This document shows positions 1,363 to 40,474 of a stretch of DNA of 64,000 nt, piece by piece. The stretch spans positions 3,286,001 through 3,350,000 of the forward strand of contig CP076546.1 of assembly GCA_018889975.1 (NCBI GenBank). Direction: 5' to 3'. Made by a program: the position numbers and the translations under genes. The stretch's first letter is position 1, and every line of letters begins with the position of its first letter. The notes under the pieces were generated by a model that was given only the letters and a program-made list of their open reading frames with translations, did no database searches and was not told the DNA's origin. This DNA comes from Bacillus sp. NP157 (GTDB lineage: Bacteria; Pseudomonadota; Gammaproteobacteria; Xanthomonadales; Rhodanobacteraceae).

Positions 1363-3078
1363 ATGATCGTCGGTATCGATCTGGGCACGACCAACAGCCT
1401 GATCGCCGTCTGGAAGGACGGCGGCGCACAGCTCATTCCCAATGCATTGGGGAATGTCCTCACGCCGTCCTGCGTCGGCATCGACAAAGACGGACAGGTG
1501 CTGGTGGGCGAGGCGGCGCGCGAGCGCCTGCAAACCCATCCGCAGCAGACCGCCGCGCTGTTCAAGCGCTACATGGGCAGCCCGCGCACGGTGCGCCTGG
1601 GCGACCGCGACTACCGGCCGGAAGAACTGTCGGCGCTGGTGTTGCGTTCGCTGAAAGCCGACGCCGAGGCGTGGCTGGGCCACCCGGTGACCGAAGCGGT
1701 CATCACCGTGCCGGCGTACTTCTCCGATGCCCAGCGCAAGGCGACCCGCGTCGCCGGCCAGCTGGCCGGCCTGAAGGTCGAGCGCCTGCTCAACGAACCC
1801 ACCGCCGCGGCACTGGCCTACGGCCTGCACGAAAAGCACGGCGAAACCCAGTTCCTCGTCTTCGACCTTGGCGGCGGCACGTTCGACGTCTCGATCCTGG
1901 AGATGTTCGAAGGGGTGATGGAGGTGCGCGCCAGCGCCGGCGATAACATGCTCGGCGGCGAAGACTTCGCCACGCTGCTGGCCGACGAGGTCTTCGCCAA
2001 CGGCATCCCCGAAGCGGCACGTGCCGACCCGATCTTCATGCAGCGGCTTGCCGCGCGTGCCGAGACCGCGAAGCGTGAACTCGGTGCCAGCGGCAAGGCC
2101 ACCCTGGAGGCGACCTGGAAGCAGCATGCGGCGAGCGTCGAACTGAACGCCGAGAGCTTCGAAAAGCTCGCCCAGCCCTTGCTCAACCGCCTGTGGCGCC
2201 CGATCGAACGTGCCCTGCGCGACGCGCGCATCCGCGCCGCCGATCTCGACAACGTGGTGCTCGCCGGTGGCGCGACGCGCATGCCGATGATCCGCGCGCT
2301 GGCTACGCGGATGTTCGGGCGCTTCCCGGCCGTCGGCCTCAACCCCGACGAAGTGGTCGCGCTGGGCGCTGCCGTGCAGGCCGGCCTGAAGATGAAGGAC
2401 CAGGCGCTCAACGAAACCGTCATGACCGACGTGTGCCCGTACACGCTGGGCACCGAGGTCGCGCGCCGGCTGGATAACGGCAACCATGCGGAAGGTTTCT
2501 ATGCGCCGATCATCCAGCGCAACACCGTGGTGCCGGTGAGCCGGGTCGAGCGCTTCACCCCGGTGTCGGCCAACCAGACGCAGATCCGCATCGGCGTCTA
2601 CCAGGGCGAATCGCGCATGGTCCGCGACAACATTCCGCTCGGCGAGGTCGTCGTGCCCCTGCCCAAGGGCAGCGGCCATGCCGAGGGCGTCGATGTGCGT
2701 TTCACCTACGACGTGAACGGCCTGCTCGAAGTCGAAGTGACAGTGGTGGCCACCAACGAAACCCGCCGTCTGGTGATCGAGGGTGGCGACGCGCACATGT
2801 CCCCCGAGGAGGTCGCGCAGCGGCTCGCGGCGCTGTCCACGCTGAAGATCCATCCGCGCGACACGCTGGAAAATCGCACCCTGCTGGCGCGCGCCGAGCG
2901 GCTGTACGAACAACTGCTCGGCGACGCCCGCGATCGCGTGGGCCAGTTCATCCTGCAGTTCGAGCAGACGCTGGCCAGCCAGGATCAAAGGCAGATCGCC
3001 CGCGAGGCGGTGCTTTTCCGCGAGGCCCTGCAGCACGTCGAAGCCGACAACCGCTTCGCGCCCGATCCGGTGGAATGA
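1363..3078 (+). CDS. hscC: HscC-type Hsp70 chaperone
   Basis: This 571-residue ATPase chaperone belongs to the Hsp70 family. Its N-terminus (GIDLGTTNSLIAVWKDGG) and the segments AVITVPAYFSDAQRKATR, NEPTAAALAYGL and DLGGGTFDVS are the phosphate and adenosine loops of the nucleotide-binding domain (about 1-360). The C-terminal third is a shortened substrate-binding region without the long DnaK lid; 571 aa matches E. coli HscC (about 556) rather than DnaK (about 638). The ATG follows AGGGATAGCAGGG. Two J-like membrane proteins follow at 1 bp and 2 bp spacing, as HscC pairs with DjlB/DjlC in E. coli. The specific clients are unknown. Confidence 0.92.
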   Translation: MIVGIDLGTTNSLIAVWKDGGAQLIPNALGNVLTPSCVGIDKDGQVLVGEAARERLQTHPQQTAALFKRYMGSPRTVRLGDRDYRPEELSALVLRSLKADAEAWLGHPVTEAVITVPAYFSDAQRKATRVAGQLAGLKVERLLNEPTAAALAYGLHEKHGETQFLVFDLGGGTFDVSILEMFEGVMEVRASAGDNMLGGEDFATLLADEVFANGIPEAARADPIFMQRLAARAETAKRELGASGKATLEATWKQHAASVELNAESFEKLAQPLLNRLWRPIERALRDARIRAADLDNVVLAGGATRMPMIRALATRMFGRFPAVGLNPDEVVALGAAVQAGLKMKDQALNETVMTDVCPYTLGTEVARRLDNGNHAEGFYAPIIQRNTVVPVSRVERFTPVSANQTQIRIGVYQGESRMVRDNIPLGEVVVPLPKGSGHAEGVDVRFTYDVNGLLEVEVTVVATNETRRLVIEGGDAHMSPEEVAQRLAALSTLKIHPRDTLENRTLLARAERLYEQLLGDARDRVGQFILQFEQTLASQDQRQIAREAVLFREALQHVEADNRFAPDPVE

Positions 3079-22570: not shown

Positions 22571-23308
22571 TCAACCGCCCTGGAGGGAGAGCACGATCCC
22601 GTCGTCGACCCAGCTGCGCAGGAGCGCACCGGCCTGGCGGGCGGCGGTATCGGGCTCGTGCAGGCGGGTCAGGGCTTCGCACAGCTCACCGAAGCTGGCG
22701 CCGGCCAGGGCGAGGTCGAGGCACGCGCATTCGGGCGCCAGCATGCTGGTGAAGCGCGGCGAGTAGTCGCGACGCCAGACGCGTACGCCGGCGTCCACGT
22801 CGAAAACCTCCGAGGCCGGCGGCATCGATTCACTGGCCAGCGCGTGCCAGATCGCCGTCGCATTGCTGCGCGTCCAGCGGAACTTGAGCGTGGGCACGAA
22901 GCGGAACTCGGTCGCGTCCCAATCCACCGAGACGAGATCGTTCACGCTGATCGGCTCGGCATCGGCGCCGGAGAACGCCCGCCGCAGGTGCCAGTCCAGC
23001 CATGCCAGCTCGGCGATCTCGATGTCTTCGGGGTAGTGCTTGTCCAGCCAATCGATGAAGGATTCGCCGTAGGCATCGAGCGTCCACGACGCGGGCGGTG
23101 TCGATGCGACGTACGACTCGGCCATCTCGTCGAACTGGCCGTCGCCGATCCACAGCCGGGTCTTCGCGTAGGTGTCGCGCAGCGAGGCGACCAGCTGCGA
23201 GCGATAGTTGTTGGTGTAGATGGCCATGCCGCGGCCGTCCAGGCCATCCACGGCCGGGGCTCCGCGTAGCACGGAAGCGAACTGGGATTGCATGTCGCGC
23301 AGGTTCAT
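22571..23308 (-). CDS. bufC2: DUF2063 partner of MNIO enzyme (BufC, second set)
   Basis: A 245-residue DUF2063 protein. The family start is clear: MQSQFASVLRG, AIYTNNYRSQLVASLRDTYA, TRLWIGDGQFDEMAESYV and TLDAYGESFIDWLDKHYP. In bufferin and related systems DUF2063 proteins form a complex with the DUF692 oxidase and present the precursor peptide to it. The C-terminal half is an RRE-like beta/alpha domain. It overlaps bufB2 by 4 bases and ends the operon. Note two copies of the same pair in this locus; this one belongs to the six-Cys precursor. Confidence 0.87.
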   Translation of the reverse strand: MNLRDMQSQFASVLRGAPAVDGLDGRGMAIYTNNYRSQLVASLRDTYAKTRLWIGDGQFDEMAESYVASTPPASWTLDAYGESFIDWLDKHYPEDIEIAELAWLDWHLRRAFSGADAEPISVNDLVSVDWDATEFRFVPTLKFRWTRSNATAIWHALASESMPPASEVFDVDAGVRVWRRDYSPRFTSMLAPECACLDLALAGASFGELCEALTRLHEPDTAARQAGALLRSWVDDGIVLSLQGG

Positions 23309-24147
23309 GCAGCCTCCTGGTGTGTCGCGGCCACGATGGCACGGGCCTGCCCCAGTTCGGCGAGCAGTTCGGCCAGTGGCGGGATATGGTCATCGCGTTC
23401 GATCATCACCGCGACATCGCCGAGCCGTTCGGCGAAGCGCGCAAACAGTGCCCAGACCGGGTCCGGCACGGGCGCGTCATGCGTATCGATGAGCATGTCG
23501 CGGCCCTGGCTGTGCCCGGCGAGATGCACCTGGCGCACGCGGTCGAGGGGAAGCCGCTCCAGCCATGTGGCAGGATCGAGCCCGTGGTTCGTGGCGCTGA
23601 CGAAGATATTGTTCACGTCGAGCAGAAGGTAACACCCGGTTCGTCTACAAAGCGCGTCCATGAACGCCGCCTCGCCATACGGGCTGTCGGCAAAGGCGAT
23701 GTAGGTCGACGGGTTCTCCAGCACGAGCGGCCGGCCGAGGACGTCCTGCGCGGCGAGCACGTTGGCGGCCACGACATCCAGGGCTTCTTCGGTGTACGGC
23801 AACGGCAACAGGTCGTGTGACTGGAAGCCGCCCGTGGCGGTCCAGCAGAGATGGTCGGAGACCCACAGGGGATCCACGCGGTCGGCGAGGCGACGCAGCC
23901 GGCGCAGGTAGTCGAGGTCCACGCCGTCGGTCGTGCCGATGTTCATCGACACGCCGTGCAGCGCCACCGGATAGCGCTCACGCACGCGCGCCAGGATGTC
24001 CAGCGGGCGGCCGCCGTCCACCATGAAGTTTTCCGAGATCACTTCGACGAAGTCGACCGGCTGCGCGGCCGAGGTGAAATCCGCGTAGTGGGGCACGCGC
24101 AGGCCCAGCCCAAAACCCCGGAATGTCGGCAACGTGGCCAGGTTCAT
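23305..24147 (-). CDS. bufB2: DUF692 multinuclear iron oxidase (MNIO; BufB, second set)
   Basis: A 280-residue TIM-barrel oxidase of the MNIO family. Family motifs holding the iron ligands are visible: FVEVISENFMVDGG, VALHGVSMNIG, WVSDHLCW, LVLENPSTYI, LLLDVNNIFVSATNHG, QVHLAGHSQG, IDTHDAPV and VMIERDD. MNIOs oxidatively remodel Cys residues of ribosomally made precursors, in bufferins to sulfur heterocycles that bind copper. The substrate is presumably the BufA2 peptide encoded just upstream, separated by 64 bp containing a strong hairpin. Confidence 0.92.
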   Translation of the reverse strand: MNLATLPTFRGFGLGLRVPHYADFTSAAQPVDFVEVISENFMVDGGRPLDILARVRERYPVALHGVSMNIGTTDGVDLDYLRRLRRLADRVDPLWVSDHLCWTATGGFQSHDLLPLPYTEEALDVVAANVLAAQDVLGRPLVLENPSTYIAFADSPYGEAAFMDALCRRTGCYLLLDVNNIFVSATNHGLDPATWLERLPLDRVRQVHLAGHSQGRDMLIDTHDAPVPDPVWALFARFAERLGDVAVMIERDDHIPPLAELLAELGQARAIVAATHQEAA

Positions 24148-24168
24148 CGTGACGCTCCGCCAAGTCGT

Positions 24169-24194
24169 GCCCGGCCGCCTCTGCGCGGCCGGGC
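24169..24194 (-). terminator. Perfect 10-bp hairpin between bufA2 and bufB2
   Basis: GCCCGGCCGC, a 6-base loop, and its exact complement lie in the 64 bp between the precursor and enzyme genes. No T tract follows. It may attenuate read-through or protect the bufA2 transcript from decay, giving more precursor than enzyme. Confidence 0.5.
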
Positions 24195-24211
24195 GATGCC
24201 ATCAGTGTCGC

Positions 24212-24481
24212 TTAGTTTGCCGGCGGCGTGGTGCTGCCGCCCTGGGCCTTGCACTCGGCGACGGACACGGCCTTGAAGCCCTGGCCCTTGCAGTCGTTCT
24301 GGCCCTTGCAGGCGTGGTTGCCCGACTTACAGTCCGACGTGCCCTTGCAGCTGTTGATGCCGAAGCAATGCACGGTCTTGCCGGCAGCCTGCTCGGCGGC
24401 CTGGGCAGGGGCCGTGATGGCGGCGGCGGAAACGGCGAACAGGGCGGCAGCGGCGGCGATGCTGTGGGTTGCGGTGTTCAT
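24212..24481 (-). CDS. bufA2: Six-Cys bufferin precursor (BufA2 type)
   Basis: An 89-residue exported peptide. A signal sequence (MNTATHSIAAAAALFAVSAA, then AITAPAQA) precedes a Cys-rich core with Cys at 39, 45, 51, 58, 64 and 77: HCFGINSCKGTSDC, NHACKGQNDCKGQGF, AEC. The CKG repeats are typical of the BufA2-like precursors encoded next to DUF692/DUF2063 genes. After modification and export it should sequester metal, probably copper, in the periplasm. GGAGA precedes the ATG; a sigma-type promoter box set is at 24529-24554. Confidence 0.88.
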   Translation of the reverse strand: MNTATHSIAAAAALFAVSAAAITAPAQAAEQAAGKTVHCFGINSCKGTSDCKSGNHACKGQNDCKGQGFKAVSVAECKAQGGSTTPPAN

Positions 24482-24528
24482 GGTGATTCTCCGTGGCGAT
24501 GGGGGTATGCCGGATCGGCATCAGGTCA

Positions 24529-24554
24529 TTCGTGCTGCGGGTCGTACCGGTTAC
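24529..24554 (-). promoter_or_regulatory. ECF sigma promoter of bufA2 (GTAACC-N16-CGAA)
   Basis: On the minus strand GTAACC (24554-24549) is followed after exactly 16 bases by CGAA (24532-24529), about 48 bases before the bufA2 ATG. CTG precedes GTAACC as in the two promoters at 26923-26998. This matches the SigF consensus I recall from Caulobacter. Confidence 0.8.
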
Positions 24555-24572
24555 AGATACGTAGGCCAGGCA

Positions 24573-25040
24573 TCAACGGATGCGCAGGGCGTGGTCGAGC
24601 GACAGCCTGCCACCACCGCGGGCGACGAGATAGAGCAGGATCGCTGCCCAGGACAGGTGCGTGGGCCATGCGTCCGGGTAGACGAAGATCTCGATGATCG
24701 TGGTCATGCCCAGCAGCACGGTCGCCGACAGGCGCGTGGCCAGGCCAAGCACCAGCAACATGGGCACGAAGGTCTCGGTGTAGGCCGCCATGTGCGCGGC
24801 GATGTCCGGCGGCACCAGCGGCAACCGGTACTCATCCTGGAAGAGCTGGTAGGTGCTGTCGGTGAGGGTCAGGAAACCCGTGACCTTGGTCCGGCCGGAC
24901 TGGAAGAAGATCGCAGCGATGGAGAAGCGCGCAAGCAGGGCGAGGAGGTCGTGGCCGATCCATCCGTCGAGGCGGTCGGCGAATGCGTTCCAGCGTGTGC
25001 GAAGACGCGGGCCATCGGTGCGGGCAACGGTGGTAGACAT
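24573..25040 (-). CDS. DoxX-family membrane protein of the bufferin operon
   Basis: A 155-residue DoxX protein with four membrane helices: ALLARFSIAAIFFQSGRTKV opening the domain, then MAAYTETFVPMLLVLGLATR, TVLLGMTTIIEIFVYPDAW and HLSWAAILLYLVARGG. DoxX proteins often accompany DUF692/DUF2063 pairs (the HvfD/BufD position) and may serve as redox or quinone-linked partners; no activity is established. It follows bufC1 by 27 bp, has AGGA before its ATG, and precedes the internal promoter of bufA2. Confidence 0.85.
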   Translation of the reverse strand: MSTTVARTDGPRLRTRWNAFADRLDGWIGHDLLALLARFSIAAIFFQSGRTKVTGFLTLTDSTYQLFQDEYRLPLVPPDIAAHMAAYTETFVPMLLVLGLATRLSATVLLGMTTIIEIFVYPDAWPTHLSWAAILLYLVARGGGRLSLDHALRIR

Positions 25041-25067
25041 GGGTAGGTGTCCTTTCGGCAGTGCGAG

Positions 25068-25778
25068 TCAGGCAAGGGCAAGGGCACCGGCGCGCAGGAC
25101 GCCGGCGAGCATACGGTCGAGTTCGGCTTCGGGGCAGGCATCGCCGGCCTGCTGCGTCGCATCCGCCAGCGATGCGCCGGCCGTGCACGCCGCAAGGAAG
25201 ATCGTCGTAGCACGATCGACGACGAGGACGTCGACATGGAGGCGTGGGCGAACCACCAGGACGCTTTGCGCTTTCCATGCGATCACGCCCGGTGCGATGC
25301 CATCGCGGCTCGGCCGCCAGATGTCGCCGGCCGGGTGCGCCGAATCAAGCCAGCGTGCAGAGGGATGCACGCGCCAGGCGAGACGCCCTTCCCATGCATC
25401 GAGGAACCGCGCGGCATCGAGCGGCTCGGCATCCGCCGCATCGTGGCTTTCGCTCCACGCGCGGTCGATCCGCGCGACGTCGGCGAGGTAAGGCAACGCA
25501 TCGGCCGTTTCGATGCCTGCAAGGAATTCGGGAAAGACATCGCCGTACCGGGCCATGCGCGCATCGCGAGGCGGATGCGCCGTGGCATACGCCGCCGCGG
25601 CCGCGCGGAACCAAGCCTCGCCGACCAGGCAGGCAACGGCGGGGAAGTTCGCCGCGAGCGTGTCGATGCAACCACGCAGCACAGTGTTTCGATAGACGAG
25701 GAACGCCGGGCCGGGAGCGGCGACATCGTCGAACAACGCATCGCCGAAGGCATCCTGGAAGCGACTCAGGCCGTGCAT
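25068..25778 (-). CDS. bufC1: DUF2063 partner of MNIO enzyme (BufC, first set)
   Basis: A 236-residue DUF2063 protein starting [16 protein letters not shown], with the family segments [40 protein letters not shown] and [16 protein letters not shown]. It probably binds BufB1 and recruits the BufA1 precursor. The start overlaps the end of bufB1 by 13 bases. It is quite divergent from BufC2, which suggests two separately acquired modification pairs rather than a recent duplication. Confidence 0.85.
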
Positions 25779-26593
25779 GCGGCCACCTCGTCGAGCATCG
25801 CCTGGGCCCGCGCGCGTTCGGCGTGCAGGACCTCGAACGCGGGCACCGCGCCGTCGCGTTCGATCAGTGTCGGCCGCGGCCCCGTCCGTGCCAGGACGTA
25901 GGCGTAGAGGTTCCAGGCGTCGGCACCCACCGGTTGGTCGTGCGAGTCGATGAGCAGGCCGCTGTCGTCGACCGAATGACCGGCGAGGTGGATCTCGTGT
26001 ACCGCATGCAGCGGCAAGGCATCGATCCACTCGTGCGCATCCATGCCAAGGTTACGTGCGCTGACGTGGACATTGTTGACGTCGAGCAGGAGTCCGCAAC
26101 CGCTGCGCTTGACGAGTTCACCGATGAAATCGCCTTCGCTGTACGTGCTCCCGTCGATCGGCATGTAGTGGCTGGGGTTCTCCACGGCGATGGCACGCCC
26201 GAGCGCGTCCTGCGTCCGGCCCACGTTGTCGGCCACGCGCTGCAGGGCTTCATGCGTGCGCGGGAAAGGCAGCAGGTCGGGCAGGTAGCGGCCGCCGCGG
26301 GTCGACCACGCGAGGTGCTCGGAAACGAGCACGGGTTCGACCCGGTCGACCATGTCGCGCAGGCGCTGGAGTTGGCGCGGATCCGGCGGGGCGTCCGCGG
26401 CCAGGGACAGCGACACCCCATGCAGCGACAGCGGATAGGCCGCGGCGAGCGCATCCAGCAGCGCCAGTCGCGGACCGCCGTCGACCATGTAGTTCTCCGG
26501 ATGGATCTCCAGCCACAGGCCGGGCCAGCGCCGGTCCAGCACGGCATCGGCGTGCTGGGGCTTGAAGCCGAGGCCGGCGCTGGATGCGTGCAT
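25766..26593 (-). CDS. bufB1: DUF692 multinuclear iron oxidase (MNIO; BufB, first set)
   Basis: A 275-residue MNIO. Visible motifs: [83 protein letters not shown] and LIERDG. Conserved His, Glu, Asp and Asn in these segments match the multi-iron site of the family. It should modify the four-Cys BufA1 precursor, whose gene ends 6 bp upstream. Confidence 0.92.
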
Positions 26594-26599
26594 GGTGGC

Positions 26600-26878
26600 T
26601 CAGCCGACCTTGGTCAGCGTGCCGTGGCCGTTCGGCGTGGCGATGGTCGTGCAGGTACCGGTCGGCACGTTCTTCCACGCGTTTTTCTGGAAGTCGGCCT
26701 TGGCGGTGCCCGCACAGGTGGTGCCCGGGCCGGCCGCGCAATCGTTCTGGCCAGCCTTCGCTACGCCCCAGCATTTCTCGACGGCGGGCTTCTTCGCGTC
26801 CTTCGCGCCATCGGCGTGGGCGACGTTGCCGACCAGGGCAACCACGGCAAGGGCGATCGATGCGGCGTGACGGTTCAT
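26600..26878 (-). CDS. bufA1: Four-Cys bufferin precursor (BufA1, DUF2282)
   Basis: A 92-residue DUF2282 protein. The signal peptide ([24 protein letters not shown]) is followed by a core with Cys36, Cys47, Cys55 and Cys76: [33 protein letters not shown]. KCxGVAKAGxNDC is the hallmark of DUF2282. This is the bufferin-1 type precursor whose Cys residues are oxidised by the MNIO before export. GAGGAAA lies ahead of the ATG. First gene of the seven-gene operon. Confidence 0.92.
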
Positions 26879-26922
26879 GGCGTTTCCTCGGGGTGCGGGC
26901 GGTTGCCCGGTTCAGGGGGGAG

Positions 26923-26948
26923 TTCGCGGTGGCGCCCGGCGTGGTTAC
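26923..26948 (-). promoter_or_regulatory. ECF sigma promoter of the bufferin operon (GTAACC-N16-CGAA)
   Basis: On the minus strand GTAACC (26948-26943), 16 bases, then CGAA (26926-26923), about 45 bases before the bufA1 ATG. Extended form CTGTAACC ... CGAACT is identical to that of the divergent sigma-gene promoter. Confidence 0.85.
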
Positions 26949-26972
26949 AGTGGAAAAAGATTCCGATCGCCT

Positions 26973-26998
26973 GTAACCATTCGCCTCGCGCGAGCGAA
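26973..26998 (+). promoter_or_regulatory. Autoregulatory ECF sigma promoter (GTAACC-N16-CGAA)
   Basis: GTAACC at 26973-26978 and CGAA at 26995-26998 are 16 bases apart. CGAA ends only 9 bases before the ATG of the sigma factor, so the transcript would be leaderless or nearly so. The -35 boxes of the two divergent promoters are 24 bases apart. Confidence 0.85.
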
Positions 26999-27007
26999 CT
27001 ACCGTCC

Positions 27008-27556
27008 ATGCCACCGTCCGACGTCGAACCCCAGCTCCGCTCTCGCTTCGTCGCGGGGCTCGGTGGGGATGCCCAGGCTTACCGCCAGTTCCTCGAAGAG
27101 CTGGCGGGGTACCTGCGTGGATGGCTGCGGCGGCGCCTTCCGCGCGCGCAGGCGGACGTGGAGGACATCCTCCAGGAGACCCTGCTCGCCGTGCACAACG
27201 CCCGGCACACGTATCGCGAAGACCAGCCGCTGACCGCCTGGGTGCATGCGATCGCCCGCTACAAGCTGATGGATTTCTTCCGCGCCCACGCCCGCCGGGA
27301 GGCCCTGCACGATCCGATCGACGAACGCGACGTCTTCGTTGCCTCCGACGTCGAGCCCGCCGATGCGCGCCGCGACGTCGGCCGCCTGCTCGAAGCCTTG
27401 CCCGACCGGCACCGATTGCCGATCGTGTTCGTGAAGCTGCAGGGGCTGTCCGTCGCCGAGGCCGCGCTGCGCTGTGGCATCTCCGAGTCCGCCGTGAAGG
27501 TCGGCGTCCATCGTGGCCTGAAGGCGCTCGCCGCCAGCATCCGGGGTGCCTCATGA
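27008..27556 (+). CDS. ECF RNA polymerase sigma factor, SigF-like, linked to bufferin operon
   Basis: A 182-residue ECF sigma factor. Region 2 (about 25-95) includes [20 protein letters not shown] and [20 protein letters not shown]; region 4 (about 125-178) includes [20 protein letters not shown] and [18 protein letters not shown]. It overlaps the DUF1109 anti-sigma gene by 4 bases (ATGA). The Caulobacter SigF/NrsF pair controls DUF2282/DUF692/DUF2063 genes in response to metal stress, and the three promoters here fit such a regulon. No alternative downstream start is apparent, so leaderless translation is likely. Confidence 0.92.
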
Positions 27557-28194
27557 AAACCGACGACCTGATTGCCCTGCTCGCTACCGAAACGCCGGCC
27601 GTCGATCGCAACGCGCCGCGGCGCCGGTTCGCCCTGGCGGCCCTGGTCGGGCTGGCCGGCGCGTTGTTGCTGATGGCGGTGACGCTGGGCCTGCGCCCGG
27701 ATCTCGCCGTGGCAGCACGCACGGCGATGTTCTGGCTGCGCCTGGCCTATCCCCTGGCCATCGCCAGCGCCGCCCTCGCCGTCGTGCTGCGCCTGTCGCG
27801 GCCCGGCGCAGCGGTCGGCGTGCGCTGGGCCGCGCTGGGCGTGCCCCCGCTGGTCGCCTTCGCCGCGTTGGCGGTCGCCCTGGCTGGCGCCCCGGAAGGT
27901 GCCCGCATGGCGCTGTGGCTGGGCAGCACGTGGAAGGTGTGCCCGGTGCTGATCGCCATCCTCTCTACCCCGGCCGCCATCGCGATGTTCTGGGCCGTGC
28001 GTGGCATGGCGCCGGTGCGGCCCCGGCTCGCCGGCGCCGCGACCGGCCTGTTCGCGGGTGCGACGGCCACGGCGGCCTACTGCCTGCACTGCCCTGAAAT
28101 GGCCCCGCCGTTCTGGGCGTTCTGGTACCTGCTGGGCATGCTGGTGCCGGCGGCGATCGGCGCCCTGGCGGGTCGCAAATTCCTGCGCTGGTAG
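27553..28194 (+). CDS. DUF1109 (NrsF-like) membrane anti-sigma factor
   Basis: A 213-residue DUF1109 protein with six hydrophobic helices after a short cytoplasmic N-terminus ([20 protein letters not shown]) that would bind the sigma factor. Cys130 ([11 protein letters not shown]) and Cys177/Cys180 ([15 protein letters not shown]) occupy the places of the conserved Cys of NrsF, which are needed to sense metal in Caulobacter. Metal or thiol chemistry at these Cys should release the sigma factor. Translationally coupled to the sigma gene. Confidence 0.9.
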
Positions 28195-28364: not shown

Positions 28365-29327
28365 GTGCGTAGAGCCATTCGGGATCCGCTGGCGTGGGGC
28401 CGCTACATCGCGGTCGCGGGCGCGTATGCCGCCTGCTACGAGCTCACCCGCAATGTGTCGTTCTCGCACTGGATGCTGCCCGCGGGCCTGCGCCTGGCCT
28501 GCCTGCTGCTCGTCCCGCGCCGGTACTGGATCGCGCTGGCCGTGGGCGAAGCCCTGCCGATCGCCGAGATGGCCGCCCTGCACGCGCAGGCGTTCGGCGT
28601 CCTCTGGGCTTGCGTAGTCTCCATCCCGCCCATCGCGCTGTGCATGCCAGCGATGGCCTGGCTGCACAGGCGTTACCAGCTGCTCCGGGACGATGGCCAG
28701 CTCAACATGGGCTTCATCCTCACGGCCACCCTGGTCTGCGCAGCGATAAACACGACCGCGAACGCCGCTGCCCTGGCGACGGTACAGATGGGCGACGGTT
28801 CCGGCGCACCCGCCGTGACCTTGCCGATCCTGCTGGCCTGGGTGCTGGGTGCCTACCTGGGCGCGTTGACGCTTACCCCCCTGATCCTGGCCGTTCGCGA
28901 ACGCATCGCCGCGCTTCCGGGCGGCGTGGCGACATGGCACGCCTTCCGGCAGAGCGACCTCGTGCGCGATGCGCTGATGTTCGCCGTGCCCTGCCTTGCC
29001 CTGCTCCTGCTGGTCGCCAACGGCGCGGGCGACGACGATGGCTTGCTGACCTGGGTCCGCCTCGGCATGGCGATCCCGGTGGTTGCGCTGACCCTCCGGC
29101 ATGGCTGGCATGGCGCCGCCATGGGCGGGATGCTGGCCAGCGTGGCGCAGGCGAGCACGTCGCTGCATCTGCAGGATCCGGCCATGATCCGCGCGCAGGC
29201 CGTGCTGGCTTTCGCCGCGTCGACGGCGCTGATCTTCGGCGTTCGCATCGCACGGCGCATGGCCGCTGCACGGGCCACCGCGTTGCGGATCGGCGGGGCG
29301 GCTCCCGCCCCCGCACCTCGCCGCTGA
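28365..29327 (+). CDS. Stand-alone MASE1-like membrane protein
   Basis: A 320-residue integral membrane protein with about eight helices. It begins (GTG) with RDPLAWGRYIAVAGAYAACY, ELTRNVSFSHWMLPAGLRLA and later ILLAWVLGAYLGALTLTPLI, the pattern of the MASE1 sensor domain, but there is no GGDEF, EAL or kinase output: the protein ends in a short basic/Ala/Pro tail. A paralogue with the same layout is at 39509-40474. The ligand is unknown. It follows the anti-sigma gene by 170 bp on the same strand; that gap holds no other gene that I can see. Confidence 0.75.
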   Translation: MRRAIRDPLAWGRYIAVAGAYAACYELTRNVSFSHWMLPAGLRLACLLLVPRRYWIALAVGEALPIAEMAALHAQAFGVLWACVVSIPPIALCMPAMAWLHRRYQLLRDDGQLNMGFILTATLVCAAINTTANAAALATVQMGDGSGAPAVTLPILLAWVLGAYLGALTLTPLILAVRERIAALPGGVATWHAFRQSDLVRDALMFAVPCLALLLLVANGAGDDDGLLTWVRLGMAIPVVALTLRHGWHGAAMGGMLASVAQASTSLHLQDPAMIRAQAVLAFAASTALIFGVRIARRMAAARATALRIGGAAPAPAPRR

Positions 29328-39379: not shown

Positions 39380-39508
39380 GGCCGGGATTCACCATGTGTA
39401 TTCGGCAACGGCCGGCTGGGTAGTAGAAATTCGCAGAGAAATTGCGACCCGGAACGTGGCATGCTCTGCGAACACGACGGACCTCATCCATCTAAGGAAC
39501 GCAGGGGC

Positions 39509-40474
39509 GTGAACGGAGGCTCGACCAAGCACTGGGCGACCCACGCAACCTACTGGCAACGGTGGGGGCGGCACCTTGCGGTCGCGGCGGCCTACGGCGC
39601 GACCTACGAGCTGGCCCGGTACGTCTCGTTCCCGCAATGGATGCTCACCGCCGGCCTTCGCCTGGCCGCCCTGCTCCTGCTTCCCGTCCGTTACTGGCCT
39701 GCGCTGGCACTCGGCGAAGCCCTGCCGCTGCTCGAGTCGGCCGCGATCCACGAGCCTGACCTCGGCCTGCCCTGGGCGGTCTCGGCATCGGTGCCGATGG
39801 TCGTGCTGTGGATGGCGCTGCTCAAGCCTTTGACCAGGCGCTGGTCGCTCCACGACGAGCGCGGCCAGGTCCGGATGCCGCTGATCCTCGGCGCTGCGCT
39901 GGGCTCGGCCTTCATCACCTCGGCGGCGACTTTGCTGACGGCCTTCTCGGCCATCCTCAACACCCCGACCGGCGCGTGGCCGGATCCGAGTACCGGCCCC
40001 GCCGGTTACTTCCTTGCTTACACCCTGGGTGCCTTCCTTGGTGCCCTGACCCTGACACCCGTCGTGCTGGCGATGCACGAGCGCTTCCGCGCCCTGGGTG
40101 GCAAGCCGCTTTCCTGGCGCGTGATCTGGCGTAGCCCCCTGCTCCGCGACCTGCTCGGCTGGGCCCTTCCCGCCGCCGCTGCACTGACCCTTATCGCGGT
40201 CACGACGCACGACGACGGCGTGCGCCAGGCTGCACGCCTGTTCCTGATCGCGCCTACACTTGGCCTGGCCTGGCGGCACGGCTGGCACGGCACCGCCGTC
40301 GGCGGCATGGCCGCGAGCATCGCCCTGGCCCTCACCGCTTCCGGGCTGCTGGTCGATCCGGCCACGCTGCAGGCCCAGTCGATCCTGGCCCTGGCGGTTT
40401 CCGGCGCCCTGCTCACGCGCGCAAAGGCACGCACCATGGCCACGCCGGCCACCGCACGGGTTCCTCGTCACTGA
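39509..40474 (+). CDS. Second stand-alone MASE1-like membrane protein
   Basis: A 321-residue paralogue of the protein at 28365-29327, sharing the opening GRHLAVAAAYGATYELARYV, SFPQWMLTAGLRLAALLLLP and the later AYTLGAFLGALTLTPVVLAM. About eight membrane helices; no catalytic output domain. I start at GTG 39509 with AGGGG close upstream. Located 129 bp after gcd, possibly in its transcript, but no direct functional link is visible. Confidence 0.73.
   Translation: MNGGSTKHWATHATYWQRWGRHLAVAAAYGATYELARYVSFPQWMLTAGLRLAALLLLPVRYWPALALGEALPLLESAAIHEPDLGLPWAVSASVPMVVLWMALLKPLTRRWSLHDERGQVRMPLILGAALGSAFITSAATLLTAFSAILNTPTGAWPDPSTGPAGYFLAYTLGAFLGALTLTPVVLAMHERFRALGGKPLSWRVIWRSPLLRDLLGWALPAAAALTLIAVTTHDDGVRQAARLFLIAPTLGLAWRHGWHGTAVGGMAASIALALTASGLLVDPATLQAQSILALAVSGALLTRAKARTMATPATARVPRH

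Follow-up and report, generated by a model that had tools for sequence, protein, structure and literature searches.

Two bufferin modules of different families beside one SigF-NrsF pair in a relative of Luteibacter

Introduction

Why should a bacterium keep two bufferin modules side by side, does a single sigma factor command both, and does each precursor peptide need an enzyme of its own? These questions are raised by a nine-gene locus at positions 22571-28194 of a 64,000-nt stretch of DNA (CP076546.1, positions 3,286,001-3,350,000; hereafter the window), which comes from the single-contig, 4,875,246-base genome of a Luteibacter relative. On the minus strand the locus reads bufA1-bufB1-bufC1-doxX-bufA2-bufB2-bufC2, that is, two sets of a precursor (BufA), a multinuclear nonheme iron-dependent oxidative enzyme (MNIO; BufB) and its partner protein (BufC), and on the plus strand lie the divergent genes sigF and nrsF for an extracytoplasmic function (ECF) sigma factor and a membrane anti-sigma factor. 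A preliminary description had taken this arrangement for one operon that makes two chemically different metal-binding peptides in one response; its observation is confirmed here, and its interpretation is partly supported.

Both peptide families are already known, as is one sigma factor over two bufferin operons. Caulobacter SigF drives the bufferin operons CC3254-3257 (beside sigF) and CC2907-2905 (distant) and a sulfoxide-reductase operon, with CC2748 in the regulon, which is induced by copper, dichromate and cadmium (PMC3511200, PMC8224329). A survey places sigma/NrsF genes in Buf1 clusters and not in Buf2 clusters; it already reports tandem-precursor clusters and suggests that some MNIOs may act on more than one substrate (PMC12452194).

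Results

Two complete modules have predicted SigF promoters

Gene coordinates and Pfam/NCBIfam matches bear out the nine genes at the place and in the order first described, and support two complete bufferin modules with a linked SigF/NrsF pair (Table 1). Spacing is tight: 6 nt separate bufA1 from bufB1, bufB1 and bufC1 overlap by 13 nt, and bufC1 is followed by doxX after 27 nt; beyond a junction of 91 nt (doxX/bufA2), the largest gap and in keeping with the claimed ceiling of about 90 bp, bufA2 and bufB2 lie 64 nt apart and bufB2 overlaps bufC2 by 4 nt. The layout is not due to chance, since a PF05114 search of the whole genome found two matches, BufB1 and BufB2, and since it recurs in 15 of 23 genomes of the genus.

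The Caulobacter SigF motif, GTAACC-N16-CGAA (PMC3511200), occurs in three exact copies in the window, against 0.02 expected from shuffling, and these promoters, identical to the Caulobacter motif, uphold the proposed SigF/NrsF-type regulation. They stand before bufA1, before sigF-nrsF and between doxX and bufA2, and across 20 loci (15 two-MNIO Luteibacter, three Luteibacter without bufB1, Pinirhizobacter and Coralloluteibacterium) all 60 sites are exact. The internal promoter lies 18 nt past the doxX stop, so that the seven genes are not simply the one operon originally described, and an operon with a single promoter is not supported; the bufA2 module has a predicted SigF start of its own, which makes two promoter units. 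Module 2 is probably also reached by read-through from module 1, as a terminator would hardly fit into 18 nt. Given the linked SigF/NrsF pair and the promoters identical to those of Caulobacter, a single metal-stress response for both modules is, by analogy, the best reading.

The anti-sigma factor fits this picture in that Cys130 and Cys180 are invariant across 12 aligned NrsF copies and match C131 and C181 of Caulobacter NrsF, whose change to Ser raised the expression of SigF-dependent genes without stress (PMC3511200).

The whole genome holds six exact SigF motifs, against three for the reversed pattern. Two of the three further sites were rejected as SigF targets by their position, one inside a gene (L003) and the other overlapping a start (L005). 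The third (L004) is promoter-positioned and conserved, lying about 40 nt 5' of a gene (1564-2730 in that stretch) for a secreted lactonase-type beta-propeller protein (PF10282). This site recurs in G133, G516, G517 and G521 (L151, L164, L173 and L176), where the gene was recognised by DNA similarity, the Pfam run having covered L004 only, and the beta-propeller gene is on this sequence evidence a probable distal SigF target. Within the same regulon survey, which covered 44 sites in 43 fetched stretches rather than every site of the genus, another exact SigF site lies about 45 nt 5' of a CxxCxxCC (PF03692) gene in five Luteibacter (G033, G062, G076, G089 and G517; L141, L144, L165, L168 and L174, with Pfam run on L165 and L168 and the rest assigned by DNA similarity).

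Some further features of the switch deserve mention in their own right. Extra NrsF copies stand beside sigF in L045 (5182-5820), L047 (2219-2857), L179, L182, L206 and L207, and Dyella stretches carry three NrsF; two extra copies that were aligned keep Cys130 and Cys180 and differ in the CHCPE stretch. Three Buf2 clusters from other genera (L055 2021, L056 2559 and L057 5619) have SigF-like motifs, with spacers of N16, N16 and N15, at the end of bufC2 and 5' of an AraC-like gene (labelled by eye). Finally, contig C1 of G143 has identical 26-base copies of the motif at 3015, 4603015, 4610134 and 4617241, three of them 7.1 kb apart, in a long repeat.

Unrelated precursors meet related enzymes and partners

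The two precursors belong to different families. BufA1 is a DUF2282 (Buf1) protein whose N-terminus, judged by eye only, is hydrophobic, signal-peptide-like and ends in AHA, and BufA2 is a Buf2 protein in which five of the six cysteines are directly followed by Lys; the two are not usefully similar in sequence. The preliminary label 'chemically different' is only partly supported, since the modification may be the same, judging from the literature on vibrioides Buf2. Published work points to Buf1 and Buf2 products that differ in scaffold but carry similar modifications.

Both MNIOs exceed the NCBIfam BufB cut-off (Table 1), and at the nine positions that hold the iron ligands of TglH (PMC10880893) BufB1 and BufB2 both keep the ligand residues, matched by alignment or motif, the first two positions of BufB1 by motif only. 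A difference lies in the residue that follows the ERD Asp, taken from an aligned column: it is Gly in BufB1 of 17 of 17 loci and Asp in BufB2 of 19 of 20, the window copy reading IERDD. In Cys-Lys MNIOs Asp replaces Phe250 of FonB (PMC13097082), and BufB2 has Asp at this site, the column match being inferred from the ERD motif. Among distinct MNIOs, 70 of 73 linked to BufA2 have this Asp, but so do 22 of 60 linked to BufA1, so it is not exclusive to Buf2.

Both partner proteins match PF09836 (DUF2063) at their N-termini. The AlphaFold2 model of BufC1 (predicted local distance difference test score, pLDDT, 89.5) has 8hci chain A (TglHI) as its best PDB match (E 1.6e-5) and 3dee (Neisseria NGO1945) as its third (E 7.4e-4); the model of BufC2 (pLDDT 79.0) has the same best and third matches, at E 5.2e-4 and only E 0.014. 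A sequence profile search of PDB with BufC1, made without the structure model, found no relative. As modelled, both proteins combine DUF2063 with a predicted RRE-type domain, the combination of PME-type 1 partners, and both score below the HvfC equivalog cut-off of 142 (NF050145; 27.6 bits for BufC1 and 15.9 for BufC2).

The locus was probably assembled from two existing units

We then asked a quick maximum-likelihood tree of 110 MNIOs (omitting 11 genome-repeating loci and rows more than 90% alike, and with long branches involving two remote rows flagged by the program) where the two enzymes belong. BufB1 of 17 two-MNIO loci forms one clade (98) within a 42-row clade (99) of NrsF-locus MNIOs; BufB2 of 20 loci forms another (96), which is separate from the NrsF-locus clade and groups with Buf2 enzymes. 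Tandem duplication of one module is rejected on these grounds, as well as by the low identities (44% for BufB1/BufB2; 23% over 98 residues for BufC1/BufC2) and the dissimilarity of BufA1 and BufA2. The tree instead supports a locus in which a standard SigF-Buf1-doxX unit became joined to an existing Buf2 unit, and it is at the junction of the two that the internal SigF promoter sits. Coralloluteibacterium, which is of another family, nests within Luteibacter for both BufB1 and BufB2, which suggests transfer, though the nearest forks are weak.

Another reading is that the second module adds dosage, the two sharing modification, metal and affinity with no division of labour. The survey speaks for such redundancy, describing Buf1 and Buf2 as similar in function, mass loss per Cys and spectrum and suggesting that their MNIOs are isofunctional (PMC12452194); yet the precursor scaffolds and the MNIO clades have remained distinct, and the residue after the ERD Asp differs between BufB1 and BufB2 as given above. 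We hold plain redundancy to be unlikely.

One precursor pair, three complements of MNIO and partner genes

Both MNIOs are present in the locus of 15 out of 23 Luteibacter genomes; three others (G101, G514 and G523) are without bufB1, and in five, one of them 80% complete, no such locus was found, so it is dispensable. The two-MNIO layout also occurs in Pinirhizobacter and Coralloluteibacterium and, with the sphingomonads below, this rejects a locus unique to Luteibacter: the two-enzyme layout of the preliminary description is real here and is neither unique nor always two-enzyme.

In a family sample of 147 genomes (for genera other than Luteibacter, the MNIO data are those among the matches listed), NrsF matched in 80 and BufA2 in 80, and the two were adjacent above cut-offs in 10 Luteibacter, one of them without bufB1, and in G011 (Pinirhizobacter). 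Among 80 NrsF loci fetched by profile, 10 had the layout (8 from Luteibacter and one each from Pinirhizobacter soli and Coralloluteibacterium stylophorae), and the other 70 had Buf1 genes only or no buf genes that we found; in two Dyella among these 70 a distance of 6-8 kb separates the nearest nrsF from a Buf2 module, where no exact SigF site was found 5' of bufA2. A class sample of 369 genomes gave BufA2 in 68 and NrsF in 15 (E up to 1e-8), adjacent in the window's own genome only; three other genomes have both, two of them on separate contigs of broken assemblies. A phylum sample of 388 genomes gave BufA2 in 25 (E up to 1e-10) and NrsF in 67 (E up to 1e-15), at most 3 kb apart in six, namely the window's genome and five others that share a family.

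The MNIO of one of those five is 81% identical to that on a plasmid of Sphingomonas paeninsulae, and four of the five loci take what we call the sphingomonad form: bufA1-doxX, sigF-nrsF and bufA2-bufB2-bufC2, hence two precursors, one MNIO and one partner per locus. In the fifth (L203) bufA1 was not found. The form also occurs on plasmids of Sphingomonas paeninsulae, Sphingomonas sp. R1, Novosphingobium sp. EMRT-2 and sp. RL4, and Sphingobium sp. RAC03, examined with 6-kb flanks, so that the MNIO count is a locus-level one. Some sphingomonad loci have exact SigF sites; in L210 and L211 none was found.

A second cluster type, bufA1-doxX-bufA2-bufB2-bufC2, likewise contains a single MNIO, and its stretches show no exact SigF site (L048, L049, L050, L053, L185, L191-L193, L195 and L214, the last on a Paraburkholderia plasmid); in L048 and L053 doxX and bufA2 are separated by a gene that looks, by eye, like an alpha/beta-hydrolase. 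G024 (C1 1729137-1731011) and G128 (C102 48329-50228), from another genus of the family, have an nrsF gene just 5' of an MNIO and of an odd precursor that matches BufA2 weakly (about E 9e-4, below cut-off). A protein of L155/L162 is DoxX-like by eye.

Loss of bufB1 and the possibility of enzyme sharing

The three Luteibacter without bufB1 have kept the other genes of the locus, the bufA1 stop and the bufC1 start lying 12 nt apart in G101, and they form one clade (98), which implies one loss. A chimera of BufB1 and BufB2 in G523 was rejected, as the protein is Buf2-like evenly along its length. We compared nonsynonymous (pN) and synonymous (pS) differences in the three bufB1-less pairs with those in 91 pairs from 14 genomes with bufB1. 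For bufA1, pN is 0.05-0.08 at pS 0.42-0.49 (median pN in the bufB1 pairs, 0.09), and for bufC1 it is 0.26-0.31 at pS 0.59-0.69 (median 0.32). Since both genes diverge like those of bufB1 loci, they are, as far as substitution patterns tell, constrained and still used by something. BufA1 may be served by BufB2 or by an MNIO encoded in a separate Buf1-type cluster, or it may work unmodified.

The first option amounts to enzyme sharing, in which a single MNIO serves both precursors, BufC1 and BufC2 are interchangeable adaptors and BufB1 is helpful but not required; there would then be three working forms, with precursors, MNIOs and partners numbering 2/2/2, 2/1/2 and 2/1/1. We regard this as a serious possibility, if somewhat short of an even chance. 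It is favoured by the constraint on bufA1 and bufC1 in the three bufB1-less genomes, by the sphingomonad loci, which hold bufA1-doxX and bufA2-bufB2-bufC2 only, and by Luteibacter G522, whose one PF05114 match genome-wide is clustered with both precursors. Among distinct BufA2-linked MNIOs, moreover, the Asp after ERD is missing only where an unpaired BufA1 lies nearby (3 of 22, against 0 of the 51 others; Fisher p 0.025, a post hoc comparison of rows that are not independent). Against it, the bufB1-less genomes amount to one loss in one clade, and all three encode, elsewhere, a further Buf1-type cluster complete with an MNIO; their BufC1 reads HRS or HYG where most others read YRN; two of the three retain the Asp, which the BufA1-linked carriers mentioned above also disqualify as a marker of Buf2 alone; and in single-MNIO genomes BufA1 could be exported unmodified. 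By itself the residue after the ERD Asp decides nothing, given those BufA1-linked carriers, its retention in two bufB1-less genomes and the product still obtained with a Phe250 Ala variant of FonB (PMC13097082).

It is more tentative still, and we think it rather doubtful, that precursors of two unrelated families are matured by a single MNIO of the Buf2 type via two partners, with BufC1 as the adaptor that would hand BufA1 to BufB2 and with the sphingomonads reduced to one MNIO pair.

The second option, in which the MNIO from the unlinked cluster of Buf1 type modifies BufA1 in trans and BufB2 is left to BufA2 alone, appears unlikely to us. All three bufB1-less genomes carry such a cluster (L052/L197, L194 and L186). 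Among the 15 genomes that have bufB1, G517 alone holds anything comparable (L190), and this falls on a different branch of the tree. However, gain and loss may each have been one event, which would leave an association of n=1; the MNIO of the G101 cluster (L052) is 46% identical to BufB1 of the window and has bufA1-like and bufC1-like genes of its own; and a trans enzyme fails to explain G522, where one MNIO was found.

A stem-loop and the flanking genes

A G+C-rich stem-loop with no T-run behind it lies between bufA2 and bufB2. Over 20 loci its nine-pair stem is paired in 99.4% of 180 cells, a value as high in 0 of 500 shuffles, and two of the nine pairs show changes on both sides, which 12 of 500 shuffles reach; folding energy is less telling (z -3.0 to +0.7 against simple shuffles). 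Its predicted role is probably to keep precursor mRNA above enzyme mRNA.

Downstream of bufC2, an APH-family kinase gene (PF01636; 21397-22548, minus strand) begins after 22 nt and may be co-transcribed; an APH-like gene is also 3' of bufC2 in six of nine other loci of the first batch. On the other side nrsF adjoins a gene for a MASE1 membrane protein (28365-29327, plus strand), retained in seven of nine other loci of that batch, and a second MASE1 lookalike (by eye) lies at 39461-40474.

Table 1. Genes, SigF promoters and stem-loop of the locus (window positions)
Feature	Position	Strand	Description	Evidence
bufC2	22571..23308	-	MNIO partner, DUF2063 and RRE-like domain	PF09836 76.3 bits
bufB2	23305..24147	-	MNIO, module 2, 280 aa	PF05114 353.4 bits; NF050167 364.5 bits (cut-off 310)
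Stem-loop	24169..24194	-	G+C-rich, bufA2-bufB2 gap, no T-run behind	20/20 loci
bufA2	24212..24481	-	Buf2 precursor, 89 aa, 6 Cys	NF050166 104 bits (cut-off 60); 6 Cys in 20/20 loci
Internal SigF promoter, bufA2 module	24529..24554	-	exact GTAACC-N16-CGAA	same site in 20/20 loci
doxX	24573..25040	-	DoxX-family membrane protein	PF07681 58.1 bits
bufC1	25068..25778	-	MNIO partner, N-terminal DUF2063 and C-terminal RRE-like domain	PF09836 69.8 bits
bufB1	25766..26593	-	MNIO, module 1, 275 aa	PF05114 324.6 bits; NF050167 348 bits (cut-off 310)
bufA1	26600..26878	-	Buf1 (DUF2282) precursor, 92 aa, 4 Cys	PF10048 81.8 bits (cut-off 22.4); 4 Cys in 20/20 loci
SigF promoter of bufA1	26923..26948	-	exact GTAACC-N16-CGAA	same site in 20/20 loci
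SigF promoter of sigF-nrsF	26973..26998	+	exact GTAACC-N16-CGAA	20/20 loci, 5' of extra nrsF where present
sigF	27008..27556	+	ECF sigma factor, 182 aa, start ATG 27008	PF04542 and PF08281 (regions 2, 4)
nrsF (DUF1109)	27553..28194	+	membrane anti-sigma factor	PF06532 233.6 bits

Discussion

Taken together, we consider it probable, by analogy with Caulobacter, that the locus is a self-contained SigF-NrsF unit for metal stress, most likely by copper, which makes two periplasmic copper-binding bufferins. As in Caulobacter, NrsF would hold SigF at the membrane via its two conserved cysteines until metal stress frees it and, with promoters before sigF-nrsF, bufA1-bufB1-bufC1-doxX and bufA2-bufB2-bufC2, one signal should fire both modules. 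From what is known of the protein families, BufC1 and BufC2 would present the precursors, whose mRNA the stem-loop past bufA2 probably keeps over that of the enzymes, to BufB1 and BufB2; these would turn core cysteines into copper-binding thiooxazoles, and the Sec-exported peptides would act as periplasmic copper buffers. Having both scaffolds, Buf1 with two central modifiable cysteines and Buf2 with up to six, may give a wider range of capacity or affinity.

The Caulobacter SigF regulon is induced by copper, and a sigF mutant is copper-sensitive (PMC8224329). Several points, however, count against the copper-stress unit proposed here. Caulobacter sigF and MNIO mutants showed no extra sensitivity to dichromate or cadmium (PMC3511200), so the inducer and the metal protected against may differ; NrsF scores 158.7 bits against the NCBIfam equivalog NF042994, far under the cut-off of 300; BufA1 matched none of the NCBIfam models; and the locus was not found in Luteibacter G047, G123, G518 (80% complete), G520 and G522. 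The natural signal could also be another metal or an oxidant, with copper binding by bufferins incidental: Caulobacter SigF responds to dichromate and cadmium (PMC3511200), and the Cupriavidus gig cluster goes up with gold and silver as well as copper (PMC8224329). This strikes us as improbable, as inactivation of sigF in Caulobacter hurt growth with copper, unlike growth with chromate and cadmium (PMC8224329).

How does the locus compare with known systems? Caulobacter likewise has the sigma/anti-sigma pair, the promoter and two precursor-MNIO-DUF2063 sets plus doxX under one sigma factor, but its second bufferin operon is unlinked, whereas both are in one locus here; a control set of 14 genomes that included C. 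vibrioides gave no NF050166 match. Together with sigF-nrsF, module 1 is typical of the Buf1 clusters and gig operon (DUF2282-MNIO-DUF2063-DoxX), to which the window adds a Buf2 module that has a SigF promoter to itself. Module 2 resembles the Buf2 clusters (6 or 12 Cys) in precursor model, its six cysteines and MNIO subgroup, but the linkage of sigma/NrsF genes here and in sphingomonads makes these loci exceptions to the survey (PMC12452194). The captophorins (5-thiooxazole metallophores such as fontiphorin, oxazolin and gonophorin) share the logic of MNIO and partner (PMC13097082), but their EGKCG repeats are in neither BufA1 nor BufA2. In the open-licence literature searched we found neither both families in one locus nor the series of enzyme numbers, and nothing on Luteibacter or sphingomonad bufferins beyond the survey (PMC12452194) and the captophorin paper (PMC13097082).

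The locus ties two large families of copper peptides to one sigma switch at one place, and the natural series of two enzymes, one enzyme with two partners, and one enzyme with one partner makes substrate sharing by MNIOs directly testable. Were one MNIO to mature both precursor families, the partner proteins, and not the oxidase, would set the substrate range.

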